Assembly (NCBI GenBank): GCA_913056175.1
Contig: CAJXLM010000018.1
Span: 1 to 46,526, forward strand
Source: an uncultured Opitutia bacterium
GTDB lineage: Bacteria > Verrucomicrobiota > Verrucomicrobiia > Opitutales > Puniceicoccaceae
Length of the DNA stretch: 46,526 nucleotides
Reading direction: 5' to 3'
Shown one piece after another: positions 349 through 39,321 of the stretch (position 1 is its first letter; each line of letters starts with the position of its first letter). The notes under the pieces are model-generated. The model worked only from the letters and a program-made list of their open reading frames with translations, ran no database searches and was not told where the DNA came from. A program made the translations under genes and the position numbers.

Positions 349-420
349 CGTCCTCGAGGTCCCCGGAAGTCCCGGGTGTCCCTGGGCTTCGGGGTGTCTT
401 TGGGGTGCTGCGCTGTTATG

Positions 421-537
421 GGCTCGCGGGCAGGGGAGCGCCCGTGGCGCGGCAGGGGAGTGGGCGGCACCCACGGGGGGGGAGCGGGCGGGGGGGCCAC
501 GGCATGGGGTGGGTTCGGGATTTTCCGGGGAACTCAA
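421..537 (+). repeat. Degenerate direct repeat, copy 1
   Basis: The block begins GGCTCGCGGGCAGGGGAGCG and ends in GGGATTTTCCGGGGAACTCA. It is preceded at 359-376 by a GTCCCCGGAAGTCCCGGG stretch that recurs before copy 3. Its start lies 309 bp before copy 2. Confidence 0.75.
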
Positions 538-729
538 ATCAGGCTGTTCCTTCCGGCGCTTTTCTGCGGGGCCTGCGGCCTCTCTCTGCTGCGCTCTGGG
601 GCGCTCCTATGCTCTGCGCCTTCGGCACATCCGGGCCTCGCCTTGCGGTGCCGCTCTGCGCTTCGCTCGGCGTGATGGAGCGGGGTGGTGGGGGGGTCGG
701 GCGAGTCTTGGAGGATTCGGGGCGTCCCG

Positions 730-845
730 GGCTTGCGGGCAGGGGAGCGCTTGTGGCGCGGCAGGGGAGTGGGCGGGGCCCACGGCAGGGGAGCGGGTGG
801 GGGCCCGCGGCAGGGGGTGGGTTCGGGATTTTTCGGGGAATTCAA
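730..845 (+). repeat. Degenerate direct repeat, copy 2
   Basis: The block begins GGCTTGCGGGCAGGGGAGCG and ends in GGGATTTTTCGGGGAATTCA. It is the copy that aligns best with both neighbours. The start-to-start distance to copy 3 is 384 bp, so the period is irregular. Confidence 0.75.
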
Positions 846-1113
846 CCGGGCTGCGCCTTGCGGCGTTTCTCTGCCGGGCCTTCCGGCAGATCCCGGCCGC
901 GCTTTCCAGCGCTCCCTTGCTGTGCCTCACGGCATATCCATGTGGTGCCTTCCAGCGGACTCATGCCGTGCCCCCGACACATCCACGCCGCGCCTTTGGT
1001 GCCTCCCTTTCCTTCGGTCCGTGGAAGGTGGTGGGCGGTGGTGGCGCGAAGCGGCGGGGGTCCCGGAAGTCCCGGGAAGTTCGGGGTGTCTTGGGGGCAT
1101 CCGGGGCGTTGCG

Positions 1114-1229
1114 GGCTTGCGGGCAGGGGAGCGCCTGAGGCGTGGCAGGCGAGTGGGCGGGGTCCACGGTGGGGGAGCGGGTGGAGGCCCGCGGCAGAAG
1201 GGTTGGGATTTTTTAGGGGATTGAGTCAA
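1114..1229 (+). repeat. Degenerate direct repeat, copy 3
   Basis: The block begins GGCTTGCGGGCAGGGGAGCG and ends with a diverged GGGATTTTTTAGGGGATTGA. Upstream, 1059-1076 repeats the GTCCCGGAAGTCCCGGG flank seen before copy 1, so the duplicated unit is longer than the 117-bp core, perhaps 310-385 bp. Confidence 0.7.
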
Positions 1230-1716
1230 TGCCGCGCCTTTCGGCGCCTTTCCGCGGTGCCTTCGGCACCTCCATGCCTCGCTTTCGGCGTTTCCCTGCG
1301 CTTTGGCTGGGGGGCTAGGGAGGGAGTTGTTCGTTGCGCCTCCGGCGTGGCAGGGAGGCGGGAAGGTGGGGCGGGTTTTCGATAGAGGGGACCGATGAGG
1401 GGAGGGTTCGGAGGACCTGAATTCTCCGCGGGGAGAAGTCTTGGGTGGTTGGTGTGCTCGCGACGGGAGAAAGCAGCGAGGGGTGAGGGGGTGGGGGAGC
1501 CGGCGGTTTCGGGTGGGAGGGAATCCGCGCGCGAGTCCGGTGGGAATGGTCGGTTCGGCACGGCGGTTTCCGGTGGCCCGTTTTCTTCGCTCGCCTGTGG
1601 GCCGGGGTGATTTCCTCCCATGAATCGGCCCAAGCCTGCGACGGGGGGGCGTTTTGATCTTTGCTTTGCTCCTTGTTCTCGCGCCAACCAGTCCGGTGGG
1701 ACGCGCCGGGGGACCC

Positions 1717-1747
1717 AAAAAAAGGCCGGAGCCCGAGGGCTCCGGCC
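1717..1747 (-). terminator. Rho-independent terminator of the rhodopsin operon
   Basis: On the minus strand a perfect 10-bp stem (1738-1747 with 1724-1733) with a 4-nt loop is followed by seven T residues (A at 1717-1723 on the plus strand). It starts 34 bp past the rhodopsin stop codon and reads in the same direction, so it closes the operon. Confidence 0.93.
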
Positions 1748-1780
1748 TGGAAGGCGGAGGGAATTCCGCGGCTACCGGAA

Positions 1781-2578
1781 TCAGGCGGCCTTGGCGTCGC
1801 CGTGACCGACGGCGCCCGCGAAGCCCTCATCCTGGCTGCGGATCTTGGCGATGTTGTAGATCAGCAAGCCGTAACCGCACTTCGCCGCGATGTCGGCGAT
1901 GCTGTAGCCCACCTGCAGGAAGACCTCGGCACCGGCGCCGGAAGCACCGTAGAACGGCGCCATGAAGGCGATCGGGTAGAAGCCCCAGGTGAAGAGCGTG
2001 AGCAGCCCGGTGTTGCGGAGGAGCACCGCGATCTGGCCGCCGGTGCGGGCCATGGCCCCCTGGATTTCCCGGAGGACAACGATGAGGATGTAGGCGAACG
2101 GAATCGTGCTGAGCAGACCCCAGAGACCGCGGTTGGAGAAGAGGCTGGTGCTCTCCTTGTCGACTTCGCCCGGGTAACCGAGGATGATCATCAGGAAGGC
2201 GGCAACGACCAGCTTGAAGAGCAGGCTCTTCGTCGCGGCCTTCGAGAGGGCGAGAACGAGGACCAGCTCGACCATGAGCAGCGGGACGGTGAGGAGCCAA
2301 TCGACGTAACGATAGGCGTCATTGAACGATTTTCCGGAGGCGACGTAAGTGCCGGCATCGGAAAGGGTGTAGGCCTGCTCCCAGCTCCCGAAAATTCGGA
2401 AGTAGTGGTAGCCGGCAATGAAGACGACCAGTGCGGAGGCGACCACGGACCCGCGGTAGCGGGGAGCGATGTCGTTGCGCACCAGTACGAAGAAAACGAA
2501 GGAGGCAAACATGCTCGCAATCGCCAGCGAAAGCATGTTGTACACCAACGAATACTGTCCTGCAGTGAGTTCTGGCAT
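1781..2578 (-). CDS. Xanthorhodopsin-type light-driven proton pump
   Basis: A seven-helix retinal protein of 265 residues that exports protons across the inner membrane in light. Helix C reads RYVDWLLTVPLLMVE: D93 is the proton acceptor, T97 and E104 complete the DTE signature of proton pumps. H58 in AGYHYFR is the histidine partner of D93. K233 in ADIAAK is the retinal Schiff-base lysine and D229 its counterion. L101 occupies the spectral-tuning site and predicts green absorption. G154 in RGLWG matches the glycine that opens the carotenoid-antenna fenestration in Salinibacter xanthorhodopsin (G156). The whole chain resembles that protein from GQYSLV at the N-terminus to YNIAK near the C-terminus. 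The ATG at 2578 was chosen because MPELTAGQYS matches the family N-terminus; the frame runs further upstream into blh. It lies 14 bp after blh and is the last gene before the terminator. Confidence 0.97.
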   Translation of the reverse strand: MPELTAGQYSLVYNMLSLAIASMFASFVFFVLVRNDIAPRYRGSVVASALVVFIAGYHYFRIFGSWEQAYTLSDAGTYVASGKSFNDAYRYVDWLLTVPLLMVELVLVLALSKAATKSLLFKLVVAAFLMIILGYPGEVDKESTSLFSNRGLWGLLSTIPFAYILIVVLREIQGAMARTGGQIAVLLRNTGLLTLFTWGFYPIAFMAPFYGASGAGAEVFLQVGYSIADIAAKCGYGLLIYNIAKIRSQDEGFAGAVGHGDAKAA

Positions 2579-2592
2579 AGTGGCTAGGGTTT

Positions 2593-3579
2593 TTAGGTTT
2601 TGTGTTGAGGGGTTGTTCGACCTTCCGGTTCCCTGCGATCCAACCAGTCGACGACCAGAGTGTGCGGTAGGGTTAGACAACAGGTCGACACCAAGAGTAA
2701 GGCGAGGATCAGCTTCTCGTCAATCTCCCGGAGGAGGCTCAGGACCCCACTGATAAGCACTGCTGTTGCTAAGAGAATTATACATCCTGAAAAAAGAATC
2801 AGGGCCCGCTCCCGTGCCCATTCGGGTGCGAAGCTGAGGCGCAGGCGGAGGAGGTGGCGTCCCGCGTGCCAGAAGACGTAGTACAGCCCGACCGCGAGGA
2901 GCGGCGGCAACAGGAGGAAGAGGAGGGCGAGCCCGAGGAATTCCGTTTGCCACCGTTGCCAGCGGGCCCTTTGGCGGGCGGACAGCAGGACCGCGCCGGC
3001 GAGGACGAGGGCCGAGCCCCCCCTGCCGACCAGGGCCACCGCCGTGGCGAGGGCGGGGGTTCCGGCGGAGGGGAAGAGGTCGAGGCAGGCCTGCAGGAAC
3101 CACTCGACCCTTTCCGGGTGGAAGAGAAAGGGCAAGGCCATGGGCAGACCGCCCCGCACGAATACAAAGACCGCCCGGTCCCACCGTTGCCCGCCTCCGA
3201 TGGGCTGCCGCCGCACGAAGGTTTCCCAATCGCGGTCCCCGACCCCCCAGTGGTACCAGGTGAGGAGGTAGAAGGATAGCAGGCCGAGGAGCGGACTGGC
3301 GATCCAGAGGAGGGCGTAGAGCAGGACGAGGAGCAGGTATCCGACGAGGAAGGCAAGCAAGTGCACGCGGCGTTTCCGCCGTTTCCGGAGCAGCCGCCAG
3401 ACCTCCTGGTCGAAGCAACCGTGAGGGATGCCCAGCGTGAAAAGCCCGATGGCGAGGAGGAGGAGAGGGGCGAGGGGAAGGCCCTCTCCCGGGGGCGGGA
3501 GGGTCACCGCGGCGAGCACGGCACCCCCGGCGAGGGCCGCCAGCGTCCAGCGCTCGCCCTGCTGGGGTGCGAAGCTCAC
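2593..3579 (-). CDS. blh: Blh-family beta-carotene 15,15'-dioxygenase
   Basis: A 328-residue polytopic membrane protein of the Brp/Blh family, which cleaves beta-carotene into two retinals and so supplies the opsin chromophore. Family histidine motifs are visible: GIPHGCFDQEVW near residue 45, WYHWGVGD near 115, and YYVFWHAGRH near 265, the expected non-heme iron ligands. Several long Leu-rich segments are membrane-spanning. The start is a GTG at 3579 that overlaps the lycopene cyclase stop (GTGA), suggesting translational coupling. The frame is open to 4002, but that part only shadows the cyclase gene. Its place directly before the rhodopsin gene is the classical blh-rhodopsin pairing. Confidence 0.93.
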   Translation of the reverse strand: MSFAPQQGERWTLAALAGGAVLAAVTLPPPGEGLPLAPLLLLAIGLFTLGIPHGCFDQEVWRLLRKRRKRRVHLLAFLVGYLLLVLLYALLWIASPLLGLLSFYLLTWYHWGVGDRDWETFVRRQPIGGGQRWDRAVFVFVRGGLPMALPFLFHPERVEWFLQACLDLFPSAGTPALATAVALVGRGGSALVLAGAVLLSARQRARWQRWQTEFLGLALLFLLLPPLLAVGLYYVFWHAGRHLLRLRLSFAPEWARERALILFSGCIILLATAVLISGVLSLLREIDEKLILALLLVSTCCLTLPHTLVVDWLDRREPEGRTTPQHKT

Positions 3580-4352
3580 GGCAGGCGGGGAGCGGGGTGG
3601 CCGCGGATCCCCCGCCACCGCAGCAACAAGTCGTAGAAGAGGATGAGCCCGAAGAGGACAAGCAGGTTGGTGACGAGGAAGAAGACGGCCTCCTCCACCG
3701 GGAGGGCAAAGAGGTGGTATCCCGTGGAAGTGGCTGCGGTGATGTGCCAGATGCTCCAGGTGATGGCGATGCTGTCCACTAGCCAGAGGTAGGCGGTGGA
3801 GCCGACGAGTGCCGGTACGAGGTGGGCCCGGTAGCGGAGGATGCGGTCCATGCCGAAGAAGGCCTGGAAGGCGAGGATAGGGGCAGCCCAGGCGAGGATC
3901 AGCCCGAGGTAGGTGTCCCCCGCGGCCGGTCGGCGGAGCATCTCGAAACCCGCGGCGGCGATCCCGAGAAAGAGCAGGCCGCCGGCGATCCGTGGCCCCC
4001 ATCGCCGTCCCGGATCGCTGGCGGCCTCCCGGCAGACATCGACACGCCGCTGGGCGAAGAAGAAGAGGAAACCGGTGGTGAGGATCGGCTGGAGGACAAA
4101 GAACAGGTATTCCTCCAGGGGGACATAGCCGATTCGCAGTCGCTCGAGGATCCGCCCCTCGTCGTAGGTCCAGATCTCCTGAGCGACGAGGTAGTTGTCC
4201 CAGGGGGTCGTGTAGACCAGGGCAATCGTGCAGATCAGCAGCAGGCCGAGTCCGGCGCGCGGGTAGGGGAGGGACCCCTGTTGCCGGACCAGGAAGAAGA
4301 GCACCCCGATGAGGGGAAGGATGAAGACGAAGTGAAAGCCCAGGTAGGTCAT
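3576..4352 (-). CDS. crtYcd: Lycopene beta-cyclase, fused CrtYc-CrtYd type
   Basis: A 258-residue integral membrane protein built of two homologous lycopene-cyclase domains, as in fused CrtYc/CrtYd enzymes and the archaeal/fungal type. Each half carries the family acidic motif: VPLEEYLFF near residue 80 and LPVEEAVFF near 220. TPWDNYLV in the first half is also typical. The enzyme cyclises the ends of lycopene to form beta-carotene, the substrate of Blh next door. The ATG at 4352 overlaps the upstream DUF4174 stop (ATGA) and is followed at once by a hydrophobic first helix; an earlier ATG at 4415 would add a Gly/Pro-rich tail without support. Lycopene synthesis genes (crtE, crtB, crtI) are not in this window. 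Confidence 0.92.
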   Translation of the reverse strand: MTYLGFHFVFILPLIGVLFFLVRQQGSLPYPRAGLGLLLICTIALVYTTPWDNYLVAQEIWTYDEGRILERLRIGYVPLEEYLFFVLQPILTTGFLFFFAQRRVDVCREAASDPGRRWGPRIAGGLLFLGIAAAGFEMLRRPAAGDTYLGLILAWAAPILAFQAFFGMDRILRYRAHLVPALVGSTAYLWLVDSIAITWSIWHITAATSTGYHLFALPVEEAVFFLVTNLLVLFGLILFYDLLLRWRGIRGHPAPRLP

Positions 4353-4816
4353 GCCCCCTCCCCCTCGCGGAGTTCCCGCCGGCGCATCGGCATCCGGTCG
4401 ATCCGTTCCGCCCATGCCTCCCAGTCGGGCAGGCTCTCCCGCCGGTCCTTGACCGTGCCGTCCAGCCCCACCAGCAGAAAGACGGTCCCTTCCCGGGCGA
4501 TCTCCCAGCGTTCCCTCACCTCGTCCCTCTCGGCGCCGGACAGGCTGCGGTGGAGGGGCGGTGGATCCGCGCGGTCCGTCTTGCCCGGGTGCAGCGGAAG
4601 GAAGAGGATCCGCCGTTCGGCGAGGACCTCCTCGTGGTCAGCAGCCGCCCGGCGGACCGCCTTGGCGGTCTCGCCGTTGTCGACTTGGTAGACGACCAGG
4701 CGGTGCTCCCAGCGGAGGCTGGGGAGCAGGGCTTCCGGGGGAGAAGTGGCGGCGACAGGCGGACCGACCCCCGGGAGGGCGGTGGCGGCGAGGAGAAGGC
4801 AACGGCGAGCGCGCAC
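4349..4816 (-). CDS. DUF4174 domain protein, exported
   Basis: A protein of about 155 residues ending in IDRMPMRRREL, the hallmark C-terminus of DUF4174 (ID-MPMRR-E). It also has the opening WEHRLVVYQVD and VGLDGTVKDR before the end. The fold is thought to be thioredoxin-like, but no catalytic CxxC is present and the function is unknown. The GTG at 4816 was chosen because it gives a signal-peptide-like start (Arg-rich, then LLLAATALPG, then a PPVAA cleavage region). An ATG at 4915 would add 33 residues and overlap the start of the divergent gene. It heads the operon and overlaps the cyclase, so it is co-transcribed with the carotenoid/retinal genes. Confidence 0.75.
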   Translation of the reverse strand: MRARRCLLLAATALPGVGPPVAATSPPEALLPSLRWEHRLVVYQVDNGETAKAVRRAAADHEEVLAERRILFLPLHPGKTDRADPPPLHRSLSGAERDEVRERWEIAREGTVFLLVGLDGTVKDRRESLPDWEAWAERIDRMPMRRRELREGEGA

Positions 4817-4913
4817 CGCCGGAGCCAAGCAAAGAGGGAGTCCCCACTCAACGGGAAAGCCCCGGAATCCGGGTCCGCTTGCCGGCGGCGGAGCCCTCTG
4901 GCAAGCTGGAGAC

Positions 4914-6377
4914 ATGTGGTGGTTGCAGTCCTCTCCGCAAGGTATCGACAAACGGCGGACCCGCGCCCGGGGAAGGATCCTCGCCCTTCTCCTCGCGGCC
5001 ACGCCCCTCGCGGCGGCCCCGCCCTCCCTCCCGGCTGGGCTCGGGGGCGAGCCCGCGGAGGAGGAGCGGCCGTCGGGAAGTGGCGGGCCGAGCCTGCCGG
5101 CCGGTCTCGGCGGGGACGCGGCGGCGGCGGGGACCGACGCTCCCGCCAAGGCACCCGGCCCCGGGGACCGCTGGGAGGATTTCCTGGAGGCCCTGCCCGT
5201 GGAGGGCTTCGTGGAGGGCCGGTTGGGTCGGCGCACGCAGGACGACCCCGAGGAATCGCCGACCACCCTGCAGGAGATCCGCCTGCAGACGGCCCGGAGC
5301 GGGCGCTGGGCGGACCTCAGCTACCGCTTCTCGGCCGACTGGATCGCCGGCAAGGGCTCGCCGAACCGTTCGCTCGATCTACGGCGGGGCGAGGGCTGGC
5401 TCGACCTGCGCGAGGCATGGGTCACCGTCCGGCCGCTCCCCTCGGTGGACTTGCGGGCCGGCCGCATGATCAACACCTGGGGCACCGGCGATCTCCTCTT
5501 CCTCAACGACCTGTTTCCGAAGGACTGGCGCTCCTTCCTCCTCGGTCGGGACGTCGAGTACCTAAAGGCCCCGAACGACGGCGTGCGGGTGAGTTGGTTC
5601 TCGGACTGGGTGAACCTCGAGACCGTGGTGACCCCCCGCTTCCAGCCCGATCGCTTCGTCAACGGGGAGGAGATCTCCTTCTACAACCCGCTGGCCGGCC
5701 GCATCACCGGCCGCAACGATCCCCTCTCCGCGGACATTCCCAACGACCCCGAGGTCGCCCTGCGCGCCTACCGCACCCTCGGTGCTGCCGAGTACGCGCT
5801 CTACGGGTACGTCGGCCGCTGGAAGAGCCCCGGGGGGTCGGAGCCCGATGGCACCGCCCTCTTCCCCCGCTTGCAGGTGTGGGGGGCCAGTGTGCGCGGT
5901 CCGCTCGCCGGGGGCATCAGCAACGCGGAGATCGCCTGGTACGACAGCCGGGAGGATGCGGGCGGGGGCAATCCCCTCGTCAACAACTCCGAGCTTCGCT
6001 TCCTCCTCGGGCACGACCGGGAACTCGTCCCGAAGCTGACCGCCGGCGTGCAGGCCTATCTCGAGACACTCCTGCAGTACGATTCCTACCGGAACAGCCT
6101 TCCGCCCGGCATGCCCGCCCGCCACGAGTACCGGCAGGTCTACACCCTCCGGCTCACCCGCCTCCTTCTCGAGGACGACCTCAGCCTTGGCGGCATGATC
6201 TTCTACTCTCCTTCGGACGAGGATGCCTTCCTGCGCCTGCTCGCCGGCTACACCGCGACCGACCACTGGCGCTTCGATCTCGGGGCCAACCTCTTCGCGG
6301 GGACGCACGACTCCACCTTCTACGGGCAGTTCGAGAAGAACTCCTCGGTCTACGCAGCCATGCGCTATTCTTACTGA
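4914..6377 (+). CDS. Outer-membrane beta-barrel protein, unknown substrate
   Basis: A 487-residue exported protein. After a basic start a hydrophobic stretch (ILALLLAATPLAAAPP, about residues 23-38) acts as signal peptide. A Gly/Pro/Ala-rich linker follows to about residue 80, then alternating amphipathic strands rich in Trp, Tyr and Asp. The segment GRMINTWGTGDLLFLNDLFP is a distinctive conserved-looking block. The chain ends VYAAMRYSY with a terminal aromatic, as expected of outer-membrane barrels recognised by BamA. I do not recognise a named family; it may be a porin or export channel. The ATG at 4914 is divergent from the rhodopsin operon, so the short spacer (4817-4913) must hold both promoters. 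Confidence 0.75.
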   Translation: MWWLQSSPQGIDKRRTRARGRILALLLAATPLAAAPPSLPAGLGGEPAEEERPSGSGGPSLPAGLGGDAAAAGTDAPAKAPGPGDRWEDFLEALPVEGFVEGRLGRRTQDDPEESPTTLQEIRLQTARSGRWADLSYRFSADWIAGKGSPNRSLDLRRGEGWLDLREAWVTVRPLPSVDLRAGRMINTWGTGDLLFLNDLFPKDWRSFLLGRDVEYLKAPNDGVRVSWFSDWVNLETVVTPRFQPDRFVNGEEISFYNPLAGRITGRNDPLSADIPNDPEVALRAYRTLGAAEYALYGYVGRWKSPGGSEPDGTALFPRLQVWGASVRGPLAGGISNAEIAWYDSREDAGGGNPLVNNSELRFLLGHDRELVPKLTAGVQAYLETLLQYDSYRNSLPPGMPARHEYRQVYTLRLTRLLLEDDLSLGGMIFYSPSDEDAFLRLLAGYTATDHWRFDLGANLFAGTHDSTFYGQFEKNSSVYAAMRYSY

Positions 6378-6601: not shown

Positions 6602-8536
6602 TCAACCCGCCGAACCGATTTCGCCGGTAGCGGCTCCCGGCCCGGAGGGCGGGGCGTCCTTTCCGGCGCGCTTGCGCACGCCCAGCAGGGGTGCGCTCCG
6701 CCAGAGGTGGCGGGGGAGTCCACCGATGAGCATGAAGCCCACCTGGCTGATCACGAAGGCGGAGAGCCAGAAGAAGGCGGCATCCATGAACCCGTAGCTG
6801 TGCAAGCCGATGCCGAGCATGTTCGTGCCGAACCAGGACCAGCTCGTGATCACGTTGCCGAAGATGGCCATGTTCATGAAGCCGCGGGTACGCACCAGCC
6901 CGCCCCAGCGGGCGTGCAGCATGACGGCCCCCCAGAGGACAAGGAGGAGGGCCCCGTTTTCCTTGGGATCCCAGCCCCAGAAGCGCCCCCAGCTCTGGTC
7001 CGCCCAGACGCCCCCGAGCATGGTGCCGACAAACGAGAAGAGGAGGGCGAAGCAGGTGATCCCGTAGACCATGTTCCCGAGCGTCTTCTCCATCTTCTTG
7101 TCGAGGCCGTTCGTGAACACCCCGCGGATCACGTAGAAGAGCGCCAGCCCGCCCGCCAGGAAGACCGCGGAGTAGCCGATCGTGATAATGGTGACGTGGG
7201 TCGCCAGCCAGAAGTTCGAGTCGAGCACCGCCCGCATCAGCTCGAGGGTGTCCCCGCTCAGGCTGAGGTGGTGGGCGACGATGAGCGTGGCGAAGCCGAC
7301 GAGGGCGGCGGTGGCCGCGCCGAACCCGTTGCGGAAGAAGCGCTCGAAGATGATCCCGAGAAGGACCGCGCCCCAGCCCGTGAAGACCGCCGAGGAGTAG
7401 AGGTTGGTCACCGGGGGGCGGTCCTGGATGTACATGCGGGCGAAGAGCCCGAGGGTGTGCACGAGGAAGGCGGCGACGAGGAGGGCGGCCGCCGTCGGGC
7501 GGAGGGTCTCCCCCCAGCGCAACCAGCTCACCAGCACGAGCAGGAGGACCAACACATAGACCACGCTGGACCGGTAGAAGGGGGCCGCCTGGTTGAAGCG
7601 CTGCTCGAAGGCCACCCGGAACTTCTCGCCCGGGTACTGCGCCCGGAAATCGGACCGGATCTGCCCGGCCACCGCGTTGAATTCCTCCTCGTCCTCGCTG
7701 TGGTAGCTCTCGGTGAGCTGGGCATACTCGCGGACGACCGGATCGATCGTGCGCGTCTGGATGCTGCGGAGCAGGCTGTCGCCGACGTTTTCCCAGTCCC
7801 CGTCGATCGGCTGGTCCCCGCTCGGCGGGATGATCCGGAGCATGGCCTGCTTGGAGAGCTTCAGGTAGCGGTCGGCGAAGCCCATGAAGGTCTGCAGGAT
7901 CTGCTCGTTGTAGGGCTGCCCGTTCTGTTGCTTCTGCAGCTCGGCGAGCCCGGGACCGATGATGCTGCGGTAGGCGCGGTACTCCTCGAGGAGCCGGGTG
8001 GTGTTGCCGAGAGGATGGAAGCTGTGCAGGAGCTTGTGGTAGCGGGTGATCCGTTCGTGGAGGCGGGCGAGCGCCTCGTCGTAGCTGTCCCAGCGTTCCT
8101 GGTTCTCGGGCAGTTGCTGGAAGAGCCGGTCGATCTGTTCGAAGCGGGGCTCGAGCTCCTTGTAGGAGAAGACTTTCCCGTCGTCCTCGGTGAACCCGAG
8201 GGTGCTCCGCACGTCCGGGTGGAGAAAGCGAAAGACCGGCCAGGTGTCGGCCACATCCGGGCGGGCCGCCAGCTCGGCCAGCCAGATGATCGCGGGGACT
8301 TCCACGGTGCCACCGCCCTCCCGGGGGACTTCCACCGACTGCCGCTCGCTGAGCAGCATGAGGTTATTGCGGGCGACCGTGTCGAGCGGCTTGATGCGGC
8401 CGCCGACCTGCACGGGCAACTTCCCGAAGGACTCGTAGTTGAAGCCGGAGCCGGGATTCCGCGGACCCCAGGGGATGGCCACGTAGGCCAGGCCGAGGAC
8501 GAAGGCGAGGAGGGGAAGGATCTTTTTCCAGTTCAT
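6602..8536 (-). CDS. ccsA: Cytochrome c biogenesis protein CcsA (system II), long form
   Basis: A 644-residue membrane protein, the heme-handling half of the system II cytochrome c synthase. The C-terminal third is the CcsA core: the tryptophan-rich heme-binding motif WADQSWGRFWGWDPKENGA lies near residues 508-527, with conserved histidines in HHLSLSGDT and HARWGG. Residues 1-20 form a membrane anchor, followed by GGRIKPLDTVAR (45-56) and a large hydrophilic region up to about residue 290, so the protein is roughly twice the length of a minimal CcsA. Its ATG overlaps the resB stop (ATGA). It acts with ResB to attach heme to CxxCH proteins, of which two are encoded just upstream. Confidence 0.93.
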   Translation of the reverse strand: MNWKKILPLLAFVLGLAYVAIPWGPRNPGSGFNYESFGKLPVQVGGRIKPLDTVARNNLMLLSERQSVEVPREGGGTVEVPAIIWLAELAARPDVADTWPVFRFLHPDVRSTLGFTEDDGKVFSYKELEPRFEQIDRLFQQLPENQERWDSYDEALARLHERITRYHKLLHSFHPLGNTTRLLEEYRAYRSIIGPGLAELQKQQNGQPYNEQILQTFMGFADRYLKLSKQAMLRIIPPSGDQPIDGDWENVGDSLLRSIQTRTIDPVVREYAQLTESYHSEDEEEFNAVAGQIRSDFRAQYPGEKFRVAFEQRFNQAAPFYRSSVVYVLVLLLVLVSWLRWGETLRPTAAALLVAAFLVHTLGLFARMYIQDRPPVTNLYSSAVFTGWGAVLLGIIFERFFRNGFGAATAALVGFATLIVAHHLSLSGDTLELMRAVLDSNFWLATHVTIITIGYSAVFLAGGLALFYVIRGVFTNGLDKKMEKTLGNMVYGITCFALLFSFVGTMLGGVWADQSWGRFWGWDPKENGALLLVLWGAVMLHARWGGLVRTRGFMNMAIFGNVITSWSWFGTNMLGIGLHSYGFMDAAFFWLSAFVISQVGFMLIGGLPRHLWRSAPLLGVRKRAGKDAPPSGPGAATGEIGSAG

Positions 8537-9774
8537 GCTTGGGCGTCCGGGGAGGGAGGTTGCGGACCGTTGCCGGCAGCGGTGGCGGTCGCCGTCTTCC
8601 GGCGGCGGGGCCGGAAGAAGCCGAGACCGAACTGCACGACGAGGCCGAGGCCGACGAGGGTCACCGCGATGTAGGGGAGGGTCCAGCCGGGGTTCTTCAC
8701 GACCTGGAGCATGGAGCTGGTGTCCTGGTTCGCGAAGGAAGCCTGGTAGAAGGTGTGGCCCCCGTAGCGGAGGGGATTGTTCATGTAGATCAGCGACTCC
8801 CGCTCCACCCCCGCCTGCGGGTCGGTGACGACGACATCGCTGGAGAAGTTCTTCGGGATGTCCGTGCCCGGGTAGCGGTCATGCGCGAAGTCGCGCAGGG
8901 TGATCGAGAAGGGATAGTACTCCCGCTTGAAGCGGAGCGCGATTTCGTAGACCCGCCCATTGGCCATGAAGGTCTGGGGCGGGAAGCGGTCGTCGAGGAG
9001 GTTGGAGACCATCCAGGTGCCGAGGTCGCGGTCCCCGTCGTAGACGCGGACGATGGCGGTGTCCGCGTTGAACTCGTCCTGGGCGAAGGTTTCCGGGGCG
9101 GGCGTCGCGGTGAGCCCCATCCGGGGAGCGGCCCCATTGGTGGCGGCCGGTTCCACCCTCATGTTCGGCCCGGCCTGCCGAACGCTGGCGTTCGGGTAGT
9201 ACTCCTCGATCTCCAGAGTCACCGGAAGCTTGGGATCGTCGATGATCTCGCCGCCCTTGAGATGGTCGGAGTCGAAGGCGTAGACCCGGTCGCGGTTCTC
9301 CTCACTCTTGTCGATGAGGACGATCTCGTTCTCCATGTAGCTTTCCGCCCAGTTCTTCGTGCCGCCCTCGTCGATCCACATCTGCCGCTCGTAGCCGAGG
9401 AAGCCGGTGACGAAGCCGCTCACGATGAGCAGGACGAGCCCGCTGTGGATGAGAAGGATGCCCGACTTCTGCCAGGACCACCGGAACCGATAGAACTGGG
9501 CGGCGAGCAGGTTGAGGAGGAGAAGGGGACCGAGGAGGTAGCCCCCCGGCAGGGGCAAGCCGGTGCGGGCGAGAGGGTTCGTCGACTCGGGGGGCAGGGG
9601 GTTCCAGAAGACGAGGAAACTCTGGAAGTACCGCTTCTGGGTCTCGTGGATGCCGAAGTTGACCTGGTCGAGTGTCCCGAAGAAGACCAGAGCCATCGAG
9701 AGGACGAGGAGGATCACCGTCAGCCGCAGCGAGGTGAAGACGAGGAGAAGGGGACGGAGGAATTTCTGCCACAT
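8533..9774 (-). CDS. resB: Cytochrome c biogenesis protein ResB
   Basis: A 413-residue membrane protein of the ResB/Ccs1 family, partner of CcsA in delivering heme to and chaperoning apocytochrome c. An N-terminal helix (SLRLTVILLVLSMALVFFGT), a second and third helix near residues 85-125, a large extracytoplasmic domain and a final helix before a short basic tail fit the family topology. The segment NNPLRYGGHTFYQASF near residue 350 is a ResB hallmark. The ATG at 9774 starts MWQKFLRPL just ahead of the first helix. It lies 23 bp after the lipoprotein gene. Confidence 0.93.
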   Translation of the reverse strand: MWQKFLRPLLLVFTSLRLTVILLVLSMALVFFGTLDQVNFGIHETQKRYFQSFLVFWNPLPPESTNPLARTGLPLPGGYLLGPLLLLNLLAAQFYRFRWSWQKSGILLIHSGLVLLIVSGFVTGFLGYERQMWIDEGGTKNWAESYMENEIVLIDKSEENRDRVYAFDSDHLKGGEIIDDPKLPVTLEIEEYYPNASVRQAGPNMRVEPAATNGAAPRMGLTATPAPETFAQDEFNADTAIVRVYDGDRDLGTWMVSNLLDDRFPPQTFMANGRVYEIALRFKREYYPFSITLRDFAHDRYPGTDIPKNFSSDVVVTDPQAGVERESLIYMNNPLRYGGHTFYQASFANQDTSSMLQVVKNPGWTLPYIAVTLVGLGLVVQFGLGFFRPRRRKTATATAAGNGPQPPSPDAQA

Positions 9775-9797
9775 AGCGAGCGGGGAACTGGGTCGGT

Positions 9798-10550
9798 TCA
9801 GCTGGGAAACTGGAAGGACTCGGCGAAGCGCTGCAGGTTGTCGCGCTCTTCGTGGAGGAGAGCGGACGAGCCGATCATCTTGACGAACCAAGTGAGCTCG
9901 CCGCGGGGGATGACCACCCCGAGGACGCCCTGGGTGCCGCTGGGCGCGCCCTCCTCCACCCGGATGGAGACGAGCTCAGCGGAGGCCCCGTCGATCTGTA
10001 CGGGCACGGTGAGGGCGGCGATCTGCTCCGGGTTGAGGGGAGCGAGTCCGACTTGGCGCCGCCAGCGGTTCACATTGCTGGCGAGCCCGCCGACACTCCC
10101 GGGAAAGGCGGTCACGGTGATCTCGGCGACCTCGTCCCCCTGGGCCACGCGGAAGTTCCCCTTGCGGATGGTGGTCGGCTCGAGCACCTGCCAGGAACCC
10201 GGTACCTGCCACTCCGGTCGTTCGATCCGGGCGGCGGCCTCCTCCATGCCGGGGAGGGTCTGCATCTGGCTGGATGGATTTATGGAGGGACGATCGGGGG
10301 CCGCCGCTGCGCCCCCGGGGGGCATGGCCGGGGGCGTGTTGCCCGTCCCGGCCATCGGTCCGGGAGCGGATCCGCGGTCCCCGGCCGGGGCCCCAGGAGA
10401 GGGTGCCTGGGGGGTGGGCCGGTCCGCGCCGGCGACATCGCCGGGCCGGGTGAGTTCGTACACGCGGATTTCCCCCTCCTCAGGCCCGCACGCGGCGAGG
10501 AGGAAGGGGAGCAGGCCGACAACCGTCAGACGGAGCAAGGATGCTTTCAT
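9798..10550 (-). CDS. Lipoprotein of unknown function upstream of resB
   Basis: A 250-residue protein with a clear lipoprotein signal: a basic start, a hydrophobic core and the lipobox LLAAC (Cys21). A Pro/Ala/Gly-rich linker spans about residues 35-95. A folded C-terminal domain follows with FPGSVGGLASNVNRWRRQVG and a late LTWFVKMIGSS. I do not know a named family. Its place ahead of resB-ccsA suggests an envelope role linked to cytochrome maturation, but this is only context. Confidence 0.8.
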   Translation of the reverse strand: MKASLLRLTVVGLLPFLLAACGPEEGEIRVYELTRPGDVAGADRPTPQAPSPGAPAGDRGSAPGPMAGTGNTPPAMPPGGAAAAPDRPSINPSSQMQTLPGMEEAAARIERPEWQVPGSWQVLEPTTIRKGNFRVAQGDEVAEITVTAFPGSVGGLASNVNRWRRQVGLAPLNPEQIAALTVPVQIDGASAELVSIRVEEGAPSGTQGVLGVVIPRGELTWFVKMIGSSALLHEERDNLQRFAESFQFPS

Positions 10551-10592
10551 GGTGACTCCTTAGTGGTAGAAAATCCGCAAGCCTTTGCAACG

Positions 10593-10619
10593 AAGACCGG
10601 GCGGAATCCGCCCGGTCTT
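10593..10619 (-). promoter_or_regulatory. Perfect 12-bp hairpin between cytochrome and lipoprotein genes
   Basis: AAGACCGGGCGG (10593-10604) and CCGCCCGGTCTT (10608-10619) are exact inverted complements around a 3-nt loop. It lies 43 bp upstream of the lipoprotein start on the transcribed minus strand. With no long T-run after it, it could be a weak terminator of the upstream redox genes, an mRNA-processing or stability element, or an attenuator. Confidence 0.6.
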
Positions 10620-10753
10620 ACAAGCGGGGGGCGGGGCGGCCAGTCGCCGGCCTAATCGGTCTGCGCGCGGAGGGGCTCCGCGGAGGGGGCATCGAAGCCG
10701 GGGGGGTGACTCCCGTCGCCGGCCGAGGGTCCGGCTCTCCCGGCCCTGCCGGT

Positions 10754-11374
10754 TCAGGGCTTGGCGAGGGAAACCCGCAGCAGGCCGCGCCAGTCGCCCT
10801 CCTCGTAGCCGGTCGCCTGGTCGTCCGGGTAGTTCTCTGCGAGGGTCTCCCGCAGTTCGGCGGAGAAGGTGGAGGGGTCCCCGTGGCACTGCAGGCAGCC
10901 CTGCCGCAGGGCGATCGGCTTGTAGAAGCGCACTTCCTCGTCGCCATTCTCCTCGACGACTTCCTGCAGGAGGTATCCGGGAAGCTCGCCCTTGGTCTCG
11001 AGGATCTCCACGACCCGCTGGAGGGCCTCTTCCTCGGCGGGGTCCGGGGCGTTGCGGGGGTTGCGCAGCTGCAGGCTGGTCCGCTTGACGTCGAGAACGT
11101 CCGTGCCCGAGCGCATGGTCACGTTCATGGTGAGGGGGAGGGCCTGCAGGTTGCAGAAGTCGACCGCGTGTACGGGGCCTCCGGTCTTCAGCGCGGCCTT
11201 CACCTCGCCCATGAGCGTCTGGAGGAGTTCCTGGCCGACGGCACCCCCGCGCTGGCGGGCGGTCTCTGCGAGGGGATCGTCCGGGCCGATCCAGCGGGTT
11301 TCCACCCCGGTGGCGGAGGCGGTCGTGGCGAGTCCGAGAAGGACTCCGGCGAGAAGGGAGGGCAAGCGGTTCAT
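10754..11374 (-). CDS. DUF3365 (Tll0287-like) monoheme c-type cytochrome
   Basis: A 206-residue exported protein with signal peptide LPSLLAGVLLGLATTASA and one heme site CLQCH (residues 160-164). The layout matches DUF3365/Tll0287-like heme-sensor proteins: AVDFCNLQALPL near 70, LKRTSLQLRNPRNAP-like text near 97-110, YKPIALRQGCLQCHG in the heme region. The DUF3365 fold is PAS-like, so it may be a redox or signal protein rather than a simple electron carrier. The ATG at 11374 was picked because it starts the signal peptide; the frame is open 57 nt further upstream. Confidence 0.85.
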   Translation of the reverse strand: MNRLPSLLAGVLLGLATTASATGVETRWIGPDDPLAETARQRGGAVGQELLQTLMGEVKAALKTGGPVHAVDFCNLQALPLTMNVTMRSGTDVLDVKRTSLQLRNPRNAPDPAEEEALQRVVEILETKGELPGYLLQEVVEENGDEEVRFYKPIALRQGCLQCHGDPSTFSAELRETLAENYPDDQATGYEEGDWRGLLRVSLAKP

Positions 11375-11517
11375 GGAGCGGGTAGGGCGGGGATCGTTGG
11401 TGGGTTCCCGGGCGGGCGGGAAAGGGGGCAAAAAGAGAGGCGCGGGGGAGGGGGCTTGCTCGCCCGGCCTCCCGCCGCGCCTCGTTCCCCCGGGGCGGGC
11501 CGGGGGGCGGGAGCGGG

Positions 11518-12570
11518 TCAGAGTTCCGGTCGCGGGGTGTCGAGGGTTTCCACCGGCAGCTGTGGGTAGTCGACTGGCGGGATGTCCCCGGTGAGCGTTT
11601 TCAGGAAGGCGGTGATGTCATCGATCTCCTGCTCGCTCAGGTCGATGCCGAGCTGCGAGCTGCTCATGATGGCGACCGCTTCGCGGAGGTCCCAGACGGC
11701 TCCGGAATGGAAGTAAGGCGCCGTCAGGGCGATGTTCCGGAGGGGGCCGGCCCGGAAGACGTACTCGTCGGCCGCGGTGTTCGTGACCGTGAAGCGGCCC
11801 TTGTCGCCCTCGGGCCGGATGCTCTCGTCGAGATCCTCCTGCACGCCGAAGGTGTAGTAGTTCTCCCCGCCGAGGTTCACGCCACGGTGGCAGGCCGCGC
11901 AGCCCTTGTTGATGAAAGTCTCCAGGCCGCGCAGCTCCTCCGCGCTCAGGGCATGATCATCGCCCTTCAGCATGAGGTCGAAGCGGGAGTCGGGCGTCAC
12001 CAGGGTGGTCTCGTAGGCCTCGATGGCCATGGCCACGTTCATGAAGGTGATCGGCGACTCCTCGCCGGGGAAGGCTTCCTGGAAGCGCTGGCGGTACTCC
12101 GGGATGCTCGCGAGCGTCTCCACGACCTTGTCCGGCGTGTTCGCCATCTCCACGCCGGCCTGGATCGGGCCCATGGCCTGCTCCTTGAGGTCGGCGGCCC
12201 GGCCGTCCCAGAACTGGGCGACGTTGAACACGGCGTTGTAGACGGTCGGCGAGTTCCGGGGACCGGCCACGAAGCCGTGCCCGATGGAGGTCTCCATGTT
12301 GTCGTCTCCACCCATGCCGAGGTTGTGGCAGGTGTTGCAGCTGATCGTCCCGCTCTTGGACAGGCGCGGGTCGAAGAAGAGGAGCTTGCCCAGTTCCACG
12401 CGGGCCGGGGTGACCATGTTGCCATCCGGGACCGGGGCAGTGTAGGGGACCGGGTCGAAGAGCGCTTCCGCGCTGGCCCGCAGGTTGGGGTCAATCTTGG
12501 CCGCCTGCAGGGAGAAGGTGGCCAGCAGGCCACCGGCGGCTACCGCCGCCATCAGGGTTGTCGTTTTCAT
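11518..12570 (-). CDS. Diheme cytochrome c peroxidase (CcpA/MauG family)
   Basis: A 350-residue exported diheme protein. The signal peptide spans about residues 1-23. The first heme motif is CNTCH (78-82), the peroxidatic heme; the second is CAACH (224-228), the electron-entry heme. Surrounding text is typical: VELGKLLFFDPRLSKSGTISC before the first heme, WDGRAADLKEQAMGPI in the middle and LRNIALTAPYFHSGAVWDL after the second. It reduces hydrogen peroxide in the periplasm with electrons from small carriers. The HiPIP gene 30 bp upstream encodes a plausible donor, and the ResB/CcsA genes downstream supply heme attachment. Confidence 0.93.
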   Translation of the reverse strand: MKTTTLMAAVAAGGLLATFSLQAAKIDPNLRASAEALFDPVPYTAPVPDGNMVTPARVELGKLLFFDPRLSKSGTISCNTCHNLGMGGDDNMETSIGHGFVAGPRNSPTVYNAVFNVAQFWDGRAADLKEQAMGPIQAGVEMANTPDKVVETLASIPEYRQRFQEAFPGEESPITFMNVAMAIEAYETTLVTPDSRFDLMLKGDDHALSAEELRGLETFINKGCAACHRGVNLGGENYYTFGVQEDLDESIRPEGDKGRFTVTNTAADEYVFRAGPLRNIALTAPYFHSGAVWDLREAVAIMSSSQLGIDLSEQEIDDITAFLKTLTGDIPPVDYPQLPVETLDTPRPEL

Positions 12571-12600
12571 GGTGTTGATCTCCTTGGAGAGAGGCGGAGG

Positions 12601-12918
12601 TCAGGCCCTCCGCGCGTAGGCCGAGCACCAGCCCTTTTCCGCGACGAGGCGACCGCCAAACGAGGAGCAGGGGCCCCATTCCTTGGCGTTGGGGTCGGTG
12701 TAGAGGGTGCAGTTCGCGCAGATCTGGCTGTCGTCGTGCCGCGGGTACTTCTCCTGATCCACGTCCTGCGTGTTGTGCTTGTACCCGAGCGCCTGGGCGA
12801 GCGGGTCGGACTCTTTCACCTTGGCCGGGCCGTCCGAGGCCACCGCGGGCGCGCGGAGGAGACTGGCGGCACCAACGCCACCGGCGAGTTGAATGAGGAA
12901 CTTGCGACGTGTGTTCAT
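12601..12918 (-). CDS. High-potential iron-sulfur protein (HiPIP)
   Basis: A 105-residue small periplasmic electron carrier. The start MNTRRKFLIQLAGGVGAASL is a twin-arginine (Tat) signal, as expected for a cofactor folded before export. The four cluster ligands are C67, C70, C84 and C98, in the HiPIP spacing CxxC-x13-C-x13-C, with GxCSxFGG-like text around C84. HiPIPs shuttle electrons between the cytochrome bc complex and oxidases, photosynthetic centres or peroxidases. It is the first gene of the redox cluster and directly precedes the diheme peroxidase. Confidence 0.95.
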   Translation of the reverse strand: MNTRRKFLIQLAGGVGAASLLRAPAVASDGPAKVKESDPLAQALGYKHNTQDVDQEKYPRHDDSQICANCTLYTDPNAKEWGPCSSFGGRLVAEKGWCSAYARRA

Positions 12919-15054: not shown

Positions 15055-15082
15055 CCCACCGGGCGACCGGTGGGTTTTTTTT
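15055..15082 (+). terminator. Rho-independent terminator after HU
   Basis: A perfect 8-bp stem CCCACCGG/CCGGTGGG (15055-15062 with 15067-15074) with loop GCGA is followed by eight T residues (15075-15082). It begins 27 bp after the HU stop. Confidence 0.95.
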
Positions 15083-15144
15083 GCGCCGGGGGGGAATCCC
15101 TCCGCGCCGTTGCAAAGTGGGGAGAGGGCTGCCTAGATGAGGCC

Positions 15145-16281
15145 ATGTTGGTGTTTGCCCCCCGCGAAACGCGGCCGACGGACTCCCGCTGCTCCCTCTC
15201 CCCGGAAGCCGTGCGGCGCTTGCGCGCGCTCGATCCCTCCGGAGGCGTGACCGTGGAGAGCGGCCTCGGTGCGGCCCATGGTTGGAGCGATCAAGCCTAT
15301 GCGGAGGAAGGAGCCCGGGTCCTTTCCCTCGAGGGAGGATCGTATCCGGAGGCGGACGTCGTCGTGCGGCTGCACGCCCCGGGGCGGGAGGAACTGGAGC
15401 GGTACCCGGCGGGCGCCCTTTCCCTCAGCTTCCTCGACCCCTTCCGCCAGCCGGAACGGCTCGCCGACTTCGCCGCGTGCCGGGTGAACGCGGCCAGCCT
15501 GGAGATGATCCCGCGGACCTCGGTCGCCCAGGGGATGGACGCGCTCAGCTCGCAGTCCAGCCTGTCCGGCTACGGCGCGGTCATTGAGGCGGCCCATCGC
15601 CTCGGGCGGGTGTTCCCGATGATGGTCACGGCGGCCGGCACCCTCTCGCCCGCGCGGGTCTTCGTCATCGGGGTGGGAGTGGCCGGGCTCCAGGCGATTG
15701 CCACGGCCAAGCGGCTCGGCGCCCGCGTGGAGGCCTTCGACACCCGGCCGGAGGTCGAGGAGCAGGTCCGGTCCCTCGGGGCCCAGTTCCTGAAGATCGA
15801 CCTTGGGGAGACCGGCCAGACGGAGGGGGGCTACGCGAAGGAGCTGACCCCCGAACAGCTGGACCGCCAGAAGGAGGCGATGGCCCAGTCCTGCGCGAAG
15901 GCGGACATCGTCATCACGACCGCCCGGGTCTTCGGGCGCCCCTCGCCCCAGTTGGTCTCCGCCGCCGTCCTCGAGCGCATGAGTGCCGGCTCGGTGGTGG
16001 TCGACCTCGCCGCGGATGCCGGGGGCAATGTCGAGGGGGTGGTTCCCGGAGAGGTCATCCGCACGGAGGGAGGGGTGACCCTCGTGGGGACGCAGGAGCT
16101 GGTCGCGATGGTCGCCCGCGATGCCAGCACGATGATCGCGAACAACTTTGTGGCCTTCCTCGAGTACTTCTACGATGCGGAGGAGGGGAGCTTCGTCTAC
16201 CGCGAGGACGACCCCATCCTCTCCGCCTGCCTCCTCGTGCGGGAGGGTGCCATCGTCCACCCCAGCCTGAAACCTGACTGA
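15145..16281 (+). CDS. pntAA: NAD(P) transhydrogenase subunit alpha, part 1 (PntAA)
   Basis: The 378-residue NAD(H)-binding domain I of proton-translocating transhydrogenase. The nucleotide fold motif VIGVGVAGLQAIATAKRLGA is near residues 173-192, followed by VEAFDTRPEVEEQVRSLGA. SSLSGYGAVIEAA near 135-147 and a late GTQELVAMVARDAS are also family features. The chain ends before the membrane helices, so alpha is split as in Rhodospirillum-type enzymes. With PntAB and PntB it couples proton entry to hydride transfer from NADH to NADP+. The ATG at 15145 begins MLVFAPRET, the usual N-terminus. Confidence 0.95.
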   Translation: MLVFAPRETRPTDSRCSLSPEAVRRLRALDPSGGVTVESGLGAAHGWSDQAYAEEGARVLSLEGGSYPEADVVVRLHAPGREELERYPAGALSLSFLDPFRQPERLADFAACRVNAASLEMIPRTSVAQGMDALSSQSSLSGYGAVIEAAHRLGRVFPMMVTAAGTLSPARVFVIGVGVAGLQAIATAKRLGARVEAFDTRPEVEEQVRSLGAQFLKIDLGETGQTEGGYAKELTPEQLDRQKEAMAQSCAKADIVITTARVFGRPSPQLVSAAVLERMSAGSVVVDLAADAGGNVEGVVPGEVIRTEGGVTLVGTQELVAMVARDASTMIANNFVAFLEYFYDAEEGSFVYREDDPILSACLLVREGAIVHPSLKPD

Positions 16282-16284
16282 GCC

Positions 16285-16575
16285 ATGGACCTCGTTCTCC
16301 TCCTCTTCGTCTTCGTGCTCGCCGGCTTCCTCGGCTTCGAGCTGATCAACAAGGTACCCTCCCAGCTGCACACGCCGCTGATGTCCGGGTCGAACGCCAT
16401 CTCCGGGATCACCGTGGTCGGGGCGATCGCCGCGGTCGGGTTGTCCCCCTCCGGCTGGGGGCAGGTCCTCGGCTTTCTCGCCCTGGTCCTCGCGACGATC
16501 AACGTCGTGGGGGGCTACCTCGTCACCGACCGCATGCTCGGGATGTTCCGCCGGAAGGACGGGAACGGGAAATGA
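16285..16575 (+). CDS. pntAB: NAD(P) transhydrogenase subunit alpha, part 2 (PntAB)
   Basis: A 96-residue membrane protein with about three helices: VLLLFVFVLAGFLGFEL, ISGITVVGAIAAVGL and VLGFLALVLATINVVGGYLV. HTPLMSGSNAISGI is the conserved signature of this subunit. It forms part of the proton channel (domain II). The gene starts three bases after the pntAA stop and overlaps pntB by four. Confidence 0.95.
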   Translation: MDLVLLLFVFVLAGFLGFELINKVPSQLHTPLMSGSNAISGITVVGAIAAVGLSPSGWGQVLGFLALVLATINVVGGYLVTDRMLGMFRRKDGNGK

Positions 16576-17972
16576 GCGGCTTCCTCACCAACCTCGCCTA
16601 CATCGCCGCGGCGGTCCTCTTCATCTTCGGCATCAAGATGCTGGGGTCCGCGGGGACGGCCCGGCGCGGCAACCTGCTCTCCGCCGTCGGCATGCTGCTG
16701 GCGGTGGTGGTCACCTTCCTCGAGGCCGGTCTCGGCCAAGCGTGGATCTGGATCGGCCTGGCCATCGGCGCGGCCATCGGGGCCGTCTGGGCTCGGGTGG
16801 TCAAGATGACGGCCATGCCGGAGCTGGTGGCCCTCTTCAACGGGTTCGGCGGGCTCGCCTCCGCGCTGGTCGCGTGGGCGGAGTACCAGTCCGGCTTTGT
16901 CTCCGGCGGGCTCGCCGCCACCGGCGATTACCCCGTCTTCCGGGCCGGGGTGATCAGCATCGCCACCTGGATCGGCGCGCTCACCTTCACCGGGAGCGGG
17001 ATCGCCTTCGGCAAGCTCTCCGGTCGGCTCTCCGGCAAGCCGCAGGCGCTCGCCCAGCAGAAGAAGGTGATGCTCCTCCTCTTCGGCGGCGGCATCCTCG
17101 CCGCGGTGCTCTTCCTTTTCCTGCGCGACCAGGCCTTCGGTTACCTCCTCTTCCTCGTGGTGCTGGCGGCGGGCCTCACCGTGGGTGTTCTCGGCACCCG
17201 GCCGATCGGTGGTGGGGACATGCCGGTGGTCATCGCCCTGCTCAACAGCCTCTCCGGACTGGCCGCGGCCGGGGCCGGCTTTGCCATCGAGAACAACGTC
17301 CTCATCGTCGCCGGCTGCCTCGTCGGTTGTTCCGGGCTCATCCTCACCGTGATCATGTGCAAGGCCATGAACCGCAAGCTCGTCGCGGTGCTCTTCGGGG
17401 GTTTCGGCGGGACCCCGGATGGGCCGGCGGTGGAAGTGGATGGCGAGATGAAGGCGAGCAACCCGGGCGATGCCTACTACGTGCTGGAGGCGGCCCATTC
17501 GGTGGCCTTCGTGCCGGGCTACGGTATGGCAGTGGCCCAGGCCCAGCACGTGGTCAAGGAGTTGGCCGATCTCCTCGAAGCACGCGGTAGCGAGGTATTC
17601 TTCGCCATTCACCCGGTGGCCGGACGAATGCCGGGCCACATGAATGTCCTCCTCGCCGAGGCCGATGTTCCCTACGAGCAGCTCCTCGAGATGGAGGCGG
17701 CCAACCAACGGCTGCCGACCGTGGACGTGGCCATCGTGATCGGGGCGAACGACGTGGTGAATCCGGCGGCGGCCGAAGACGCCTCCAGCCCGATCTACGG
17801 GATGCCGATCGTGGAGGCCCGGCAGGCCCGCACGATCTACGCCCTCAAGCGGGGCCAGGGGGCCGGATTCTCCGGCTTGCCCAACCAGCTCTATTTCCTC
17901 CCGCAGACCAGCATGCTCTACGGGGACGCCAAGGAAACGCTGAGCGCGCTGGTCAAGGAATTCCAGTCGTAG
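16572..17972 (+). CDS. pntB: NAD(P) transhydrogenase subunit beta
   Basis: A 466-residue subunit with an N-terminal membrane domain of about eight to nine helices and a C-terminal NADP(H)-binding domain III. Seen motifs: MPELVALFNGFGGLAS near residue 78, GGGDMPVVIALLNSLSG near 214, VPGYGMAVAQAQH near 312, HPVAGRMPGHMNVLLAEA near 346, and NDVVNPAA near 395, followed by MPIVEA. The ATG overlaps the pntAB stop (ATGA). A proton pump encoded nearby, the rhodopsin, could help drive this enzyme, but that link is inference. Confidence 0.96.
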   Translation: MSGFLTNLAYIAAAVLFIFGIKMLGSAGTARRGNLLSAVGMLLAVVVTFLEAGLGQAWIWIGLAIGAAIGAVWARVVKMTAMPELVALFNGFGGLASALVAWAEYQSGFVSGGLAATGDYPVFRAGVISIATWIGALTFTGSGIAFGKLSGRLSGKPQALAQQKKVMLLLFGGGILAAVLFLFLRDQAFGYLLFLVVLAAGLTVGVLGTRPIGGGDMPVVIALLNSLSGLAAAGAGFAIENNVLIVAGCLVGCSGLILTVIMCKAMNRKLVAVLFGGFGGTPDGPAVEVDGEMKASNPGDAYYVLEAAHSVAFVPGYGMAVAQAQHVVKELADLLEARGSEVFFAIHPVAGRMPGHMNVLLAEADVPYEQLLEMEAANQRLPTVDVAIVIGANDVVNPAAAEDASSPIYGMPIVEARQARTIYALKRGQGAGFSGLPNQLYFLPQTSMLYGDAKETLSALVKEFQS

Positions 17973-38933: not shown

Positions 38934-39321
38934 GCCGCCGGGTTTCTCTGTGCGGGATCCGCTCTGCGGGGAGCGGCCGTACGCCTCGGGGCGGCGGTCC
39001 GCTCCCCGGCACATGCTCGGGCACGAGCTCCAGCCCGGGGACACGGGGTTCCGGGGGGAACAAGCAGGGGACCGTTCGGGCGAACATGCAGGGGCCCGGG
39101 GGAAACAAGCAAGAGTCCGCTGGCTGGTCGGTGACGGTGCTCATCCGATCCAGCCGGCCTCCATTGCGGGGCTCGGCTCGGGGCAAGGGGCCGGGCTCAC
39201 AAGGGGGAGGGAGTCCCGGAGATAAGGGGGAGAGGGGCTTCCCCGCACGGCTACCCCGCCGGCGCGGGCGAAATCCTTGCGGGAGGGCGGACTCGCATCC
39301 GGGCCCTGCTGTAGGTGCGGA
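38934..39321. other. Convergent spacer, no gene seen
   Basis: About 390 bp between the transporter and ClC stops. Translations are low-complexity. It holds a small direct-repeat cluster at 39053-39115 and G-rich runs; no clear terminator with a T-run is visible. Confidence 0.6.
39053..39115. repeat. Three short degenerate direct repeats
   Basis: Three related blocks start at 39053 (GGGGGGAACAAGCAGGGG), 39077 (CGGGCGAACATGCAGGGG) and 39097 (CGGGGGAAACAAGCAAGAG), 20-24 bp apart. No protein or RNA role is evident. Confidence 0.6.

Follow-up and report, generated by a model that had tools for sequence, protein, structure and literature searches.

A Salinibacter-type xanthorhodopsin with a probable 4-keto carotenoid antenna in an uncultured Opitutia bacterium

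A rhodopsin gene on contig CAJXLM010000018.1 of an uncultured Opitutia bacterium raises the question of whether its product works with retinal as its only pigment or is also fed by a carotenoid antenna and, if so, by which carotenoid. The window analysed here is the whole 46,526-nucleotide stretch of this contig, for which an initial annotation had proposed a xanthorhodopsin (XR) that may use a keto- or hydroxy-carotenoid to widen its absorption. The reading we lean towards is a Salinibacter-type XR proton pump with a probable 4-keto carotenoid antenna.

The rhodopsin gene and its operon

The rhodopsin, for which the initial annotation gave no strand, is encoded on the minus strand (the plus-strand frame over 1781-2578 encodes no rhodopsin), where the order of genes is as follows:

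4349..5266, minus strand: frame with a C-terminal DUF4174 domain (PF13778, E 2e-15; the 5' limit is that of the open frame)
3576..4352, minus strand: CarR/CrtYcd-type lycopene cyclase (TIGR03462, 131 bits in two stretches, cut-off 39.4; PF18916)
2593..3579, minus strand: Blh retinal-forming dioxygenase (PF15461, E 6e-51; TIGR03753, 171.7 bits, cut-off 95.25)
1781..2578, minus strand: xanthorhodopsin, 265 amino acids plus stop (Pfam, best solved relative 3DDL, aligned residues)
1723..1748, minus strand: intrinsic-terminator-like hairpin (11 pairs, 9 of them G-C, then a T run)

The 265-aa protein matched Pfam Bac_rhodopsin (E 6e-35), and its top solved relative by sequence was the Salinibacter xanthorhodopsin 3DDL (E 4e-89, about 60% identity), followed by Kin4B8, thermophilic rhodopsin, psXR and Gloeobacter rhodopsin (GR). 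An AlphaFold model built with 38 related sequences (pLDDT 86, pTM 0.83) also had 3DDL as its top structural match (TM 0.88, rmsd 2.0 A, 60% identity). Since the match to 3DDL is full length, the model is confident and the same structure leads by fold, the match is not a chance one. Sequence and fold were both nearest to XR, GR and Kin4B8 and the tree grouping agreed, so that by homology the protein is a member of the XR family, in its Salinibacter-type branch. Alignment placed H58, D93, T97, L101, E104, G154 (in RGLWG) and K233 in the expected columns of XR, Kin4B8 and GR. The DTE motif (D93, T97, E104) is thus present together with the His partner of the counterion (H58, partner of D93), the proton donor E104, the Schiff-base Lys (K233) and the Leu at the tuning site, all as the initial annotation had read them, and the protein is predicted to pump protons outward in the light. 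The glycine of RGLWG is also confirmed as an open gate at the position of XR Gly156; further pocket residues are T158, F161, N189, F205, F209 and Y210.

The cyclase contains two lycopene cyclase domains and starts at the Met of MTYLGFHF, a start that is overlapped by the stop codon of the DUF4174 frame. The GTG start of Blh overlaps the cyclase stop codon, and the gap between Blh and the rhodopsin gene is just 14 bases. Because of these overlaps and the short gap, the retinal-supply genes and the pump gene are most likely co-transcribed, and the operon probably ends at the hairpin and T run that closely follow the rhodopsin gene.

Other features were observed around this operon and in related genomes. 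A run of electron-transfer genes adjoins it (window 6602-12918, minus strand), coding for CcsB- and ResB-like cytochrome c assembly proteins, a Tll0287-like protein, a di-haem cytochrome c peroxidase and a HiPIP, after which comes a transhydrogenase (15070-17972, plus strand). On the other side, window 360-1500 is GC-rich and holds several similar repeated segments (gcgggcaggggagcgc..., ggcgcctttc...) with no clear gene; a plus-strand frame (1-348), itself similar to the beginning of contig 29, lies upstream of it. On contig 6 of the host genome (L100:15146-18311), a second Brp/Blh gene (TIGR03753, 151 bits) stands divergently beside a CrtI/CrtD-family gene, giving this genome two retinal-forming enzymes and only one rhodopsin. 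A genome of the same family (G002, contig 25, ~38747-39490; L098) carries another rhodopsin in addition to its XR, and the motif of this protein reads N, D and Q, like that of the NDQ sodium pumps.

The carotenoid gate and pocket

A glycine replacing a bulky residue at XR position 156 has been used as a criterion for carotenoid-binding rhodopsins (PMC12308411), and G154 of the query occupies this position. The same glycine was found in 80 of 90 aligned XR-family sequences and is thus a trait of ordinary family members. An antenna needs it, as the G178W mutation in GR abolishes carotenoid binding (PMC9151804), but it is not sufficient, as an actinorhodopsin with a gate Gly did not bind canthaxanthin (PMC8113403). 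The proposal that the glycine marks antenna-capable pumps thus holds in so far as the gate of the query is open; as a diagnostic of an antenna the glycine fails, being the default state of the family.

One of the residues lining the pocket provides the main doubt on antenna function. XR Tyr207 (Kin4B8 Tyr204) is reported as conserved in all known carotenoid-binding rhodopsins and the Y204A mutant of Kin4B8 was unstable (PMC12308411); the alignment places Phe205 of the query at this position. Among the 80 open-gate XRs this Phe was found in only three, the query, G002 (whose rhodopsin is 72% identical to the query) and a Verrucomicrobia MAG (L037), which together form one fully supported clade. 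An H58N change considered in L037 was rejected, as its XR gene (L037:7133-7889) is frameshifted right after His58, by assembly error or as a pseudogene. The reverse of the query was observed in an XR clade of Deltaproteobacteria/Myxococcota (L050 and L060, also L053 and L061), with Phe closing the gate and the pocket Tyr kept.

The remainder of the pocket is predicted to be hydrophobic and closer to the keto type. Kin4B8 positions 208/209 discriminate between ligands, being polar in binders of 3-hydroxy carotenoids and hydrophobic in binders of 4-keto carotenoids, and the S208A mutation lowered zeaxanthin binding to 2% (PMC12308411). These positions are Met/Ala in XR and Met/Leu in GR; the query has the hydrophobic Phe209, a residue that is not rare (21 of 80 open-gate XRs), and Tyr210, which carries a hydroxyl, so that the two are not both polar as in the 3-hydroxy binders. 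GR residues T182, F185, P226 and I227 affect canthaxanthin binding (PMC9151804) and are all kept in the query as Thr158, Phe161, Pro202 and Ile203.

Of 372 genomes surveyed in the order of the query, eight have an XR-type gene. Five of these have Trp at the gate (Trp154), and all five carry the equivalent of Phe205, together with Met at the Thr158 site and Lys, Arg or Thr at the Asn189 site. These closed-gate XRs are 45-49% identical to the query and group apart from it in the tree, near alphaproteobacterial XRs, whereas the query branch adjoins Balneolaceae/Rhodothermales sequences. Opitutales XR-like genes have been described as occurring sporadically and falling among the XRs of proteobacteria (PMC10284914), and the closed-gate set may correspond to the ISCC51 type of that study. 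From its placement and residues the query branch is Salinibacter/Balneolaceae-like and distinct from the closed-gate set, which indicates that antenna-type and closed-gate XRs both occur within one bacterial order.

The Tyr207 to Phe change may mean that loss of the hydroxyl is tolerated or that the pocket is heading to loss. The second option leads to the strongest alternative, a retinal-only XR that has its gate Gly from an antenna-binding ancestor while the pocket decays and the keto-carotenoid acts as a membrane antioxidant only. The distribution of the Phe, rare behind open gates and present in every closed-gate XR of the order, is as this alternative would predict, and so are the Gly-gated actinorhodopsin described above and the fact that deinoxanthin/salinixanthin-type pigments serve without a rhodopsin, as in Rhodothermus marinus, which makes salinixanthin and has no detected rhodopsin (PMC5822342). 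However, Thr158 and Asn189, both replaced in the closed-gate XRs, are kept in the query, and as the query lies outside the closed-gate clade, the two Phe changes look independent. Moreover, the keto group in XR is described as locked by a nonpolar contact with a Met sulfur and not by a hydrogen bond (PMC13093654), so that loss of the Tyr hydroxyl is perhaps tolerated. We regard a retinal-only pump as the less likely reading, and an antenna function for the query as plausible from its pocket residues.

Carotenoid genes and the probable ligand

The host genome (2.61 Mb, 96.5% complete) encodes CrtB, CrtI and further CrtI-family proteins, one CrtD-like and one CrtO-like protein, a CruF-like hydratase and a P450, and thus a plausible source of carotenoid. 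Neither crtW nor crtZ, the ketolase and hydroxylase genes suggested for search in the initial annotation, was found in this 96.5%-complete genome. The sole PF00487 match, on contig 6, was rejected as CrtW since motif and family identify it as a fatty-acid (delta-9/DesA-type) desaturase, and a CrtZ-type hydroxylase was sought through PF04116, which had no match here, though elsewhere in the genome set the same model does pick up short proteins of CrtZ size.

A CrtO-type ketolase homolog was found instead on contig 5, away from the rhodopsin locus. It matched the beta-carotene ketolase CrtO model NF045689 over its full length with 315 bits (equivalog cut-off 1000), a score much like that of the Salinivenus lutea CrtO (316 bits). 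The protein is 44-47% identical to the CrtO-type genes of five Salinibacter-group loci (L009, L012, L018, L022 and L025), in which CrtO lies directly upstream of the cyclase and XR, and 35% identical to a cyanobacterial CrtO scoring above the cut-off. In a quick tree, with SH-aLRT as its only support measure, it grouped with the Salinibacter-group CrtO, with the cyanobacterial protein branching next. In Trueperaceae, CrtO homologs also form a cluster with CrtB, cyclase, CruF and CrtD, and one Frankineae genome has a homolog clustered with CruF and CrtD.

Deinoxanthin, a monocyclic 4-keto carotenoid, is made by way of CrtLm, CruF, CrtD and CrtO (PMC11306087), and CrtO has been proposed to act in salinixanthin synthesis in R. 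marinus (PMC5822342). By homologs, the gene set of such a producer is complete in the host (CrtB, CrtI, cyclase, CruF, CrtD, CrtO), with CrtO, CruF and CrtD scoring below the NCBIfam equivalog cut-offs and identified by homology, context and tree. This set would probably yield a deinoxanthin- or salinixanthin-like carotenoid, monocyclic and with a 4-keto group; the ketolase activity of the CrtO-type protein and the structure of the carotenoid are predictions from these gene assignments. CruF and CrtO-type genes were present in all four open-gate genomes of the group (G000, the host; G002; G030; and G081, which is L037), and no homologs of either were found in the two closed-gate genomes of the order that were tested (G013, G034). 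Across 50 genomes the association of an open gate with CrtO was weak (Fisher p 0.03-0.05, uncorrected for kinship or for CrtW in other genomes).

As CrtZ and CrtW were not found but a CrtO-type homolog is present, the keto half of the proposed keto- or hydroxy-carotenoid is favoured, and the hydroxy half is weakened further by the Phe209 that replaces the Kin4B8 serine. A minor possibility of hydroxylation comes from the P450 on contig 21, whose closest solved relatives are CYP120 and CYP51. A Kin4B8-like antenna of a 3-hydroxylated carotenoid (zeaxanthin- or myxol-like), synthesised by this P450 or by an unrecognised hydroxylase, is nevertheless improbable: Tyr210 corresponds to Kin4B8 Tyr209, one of the two residues contacting the 3-hydroxy group, and a structure of a myxol-bound rhodopsin exists (9jow, by its title), but the serine on which zeaxanthin binding depends is lost, PF04116 finds nothing in the host and the carotenoid hydroxylase CYP175A1 is absent among the 60 closest solved P450s.

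Under the favoured reading of a 4-keto antenna, the lycopene cyclase and Blh dioxygenase of the operon would make retinal on the spot, and CrtB, CrtI, cyclase, CruF, CrtD and the CrtO-type ketolase would supply a monocyclic 4-keto carotenoid of the deinoxanthin/salinixanthin type. Its ring would lie against the retinal ring in the opening that Gly154 leaves between helices E and F, from where the bound carotenoid would pass blue-green excitation to retinal and the pump would move protons outward in the light; the binding and the energy transfer are both predictions. More tentatively, and with slightly less confidence than an even chance, the clade may represent a natural class of antenna rhodopsins that do without the pocket tyrosine and bind their 4-keto carotenoid in a Phe/Met/Phe/Tyr pocket.

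Antenna use and carotenoid choice of rhodopsins are now argued from the gate Gly, the pocket Tyr and the pocket floor. The query clade splits two of these criteria naturally, with the gate open, the tyrosine gone and a set of keto-carotenoid genes retained by these genomes, and is a natural test of the need for the pocket tyrosine. If 4-keto binding without the tyrosine is true, the Tyr hydroxyl is dispensable and the sequence rule for predicting antenna rhodopsins changes.

Comparison with known systems

The closed-gate XRs of the order share with the query the XR family, the DTE motif and the Phe at the Tyr207 position, and differ in their gate residue, which is Trp, and in the Met that takes the place of Thr158. 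GR (6NWD; echinenone/canthaxanthin) is 51% identical to the query, with the equivalents of Gly178, T182, F185, P226 and I227 kept, whereas GR T179, Y229 and the Met of the pocket floor are Leu, Phe and Phe in the query. Kin4B8 (7YTB, 8I2Z; zeaxanthin/lutein) is 54% identical and shares the Gly gate, Thr158, Asn189 and Tyr210; its Tyr204 and its essential Ser208 are, however, both Phe in the query, in whose genome no CrtZ-type hydroxylase was found by PF04116. The XR of Salinibacter ruber (3DDL; salinixanthin) differs at Tyr207, Met211, Ala212 and Phe157, which are Phe, Phe, Tyr and Leu in the query, and in its gene arrangement, since the query has Blh inside the operon and CrtO elsewhere. It has, on the other hand, the same pump residues, the same RGLWG gate motif and the equivalents of Thr158, Asn189 and Met206; the genome of the query likewise carries a CrtO-type ketolase and CruF, and a cyclase gene adjoins the XR gene as in Salinivenus-type genomes.
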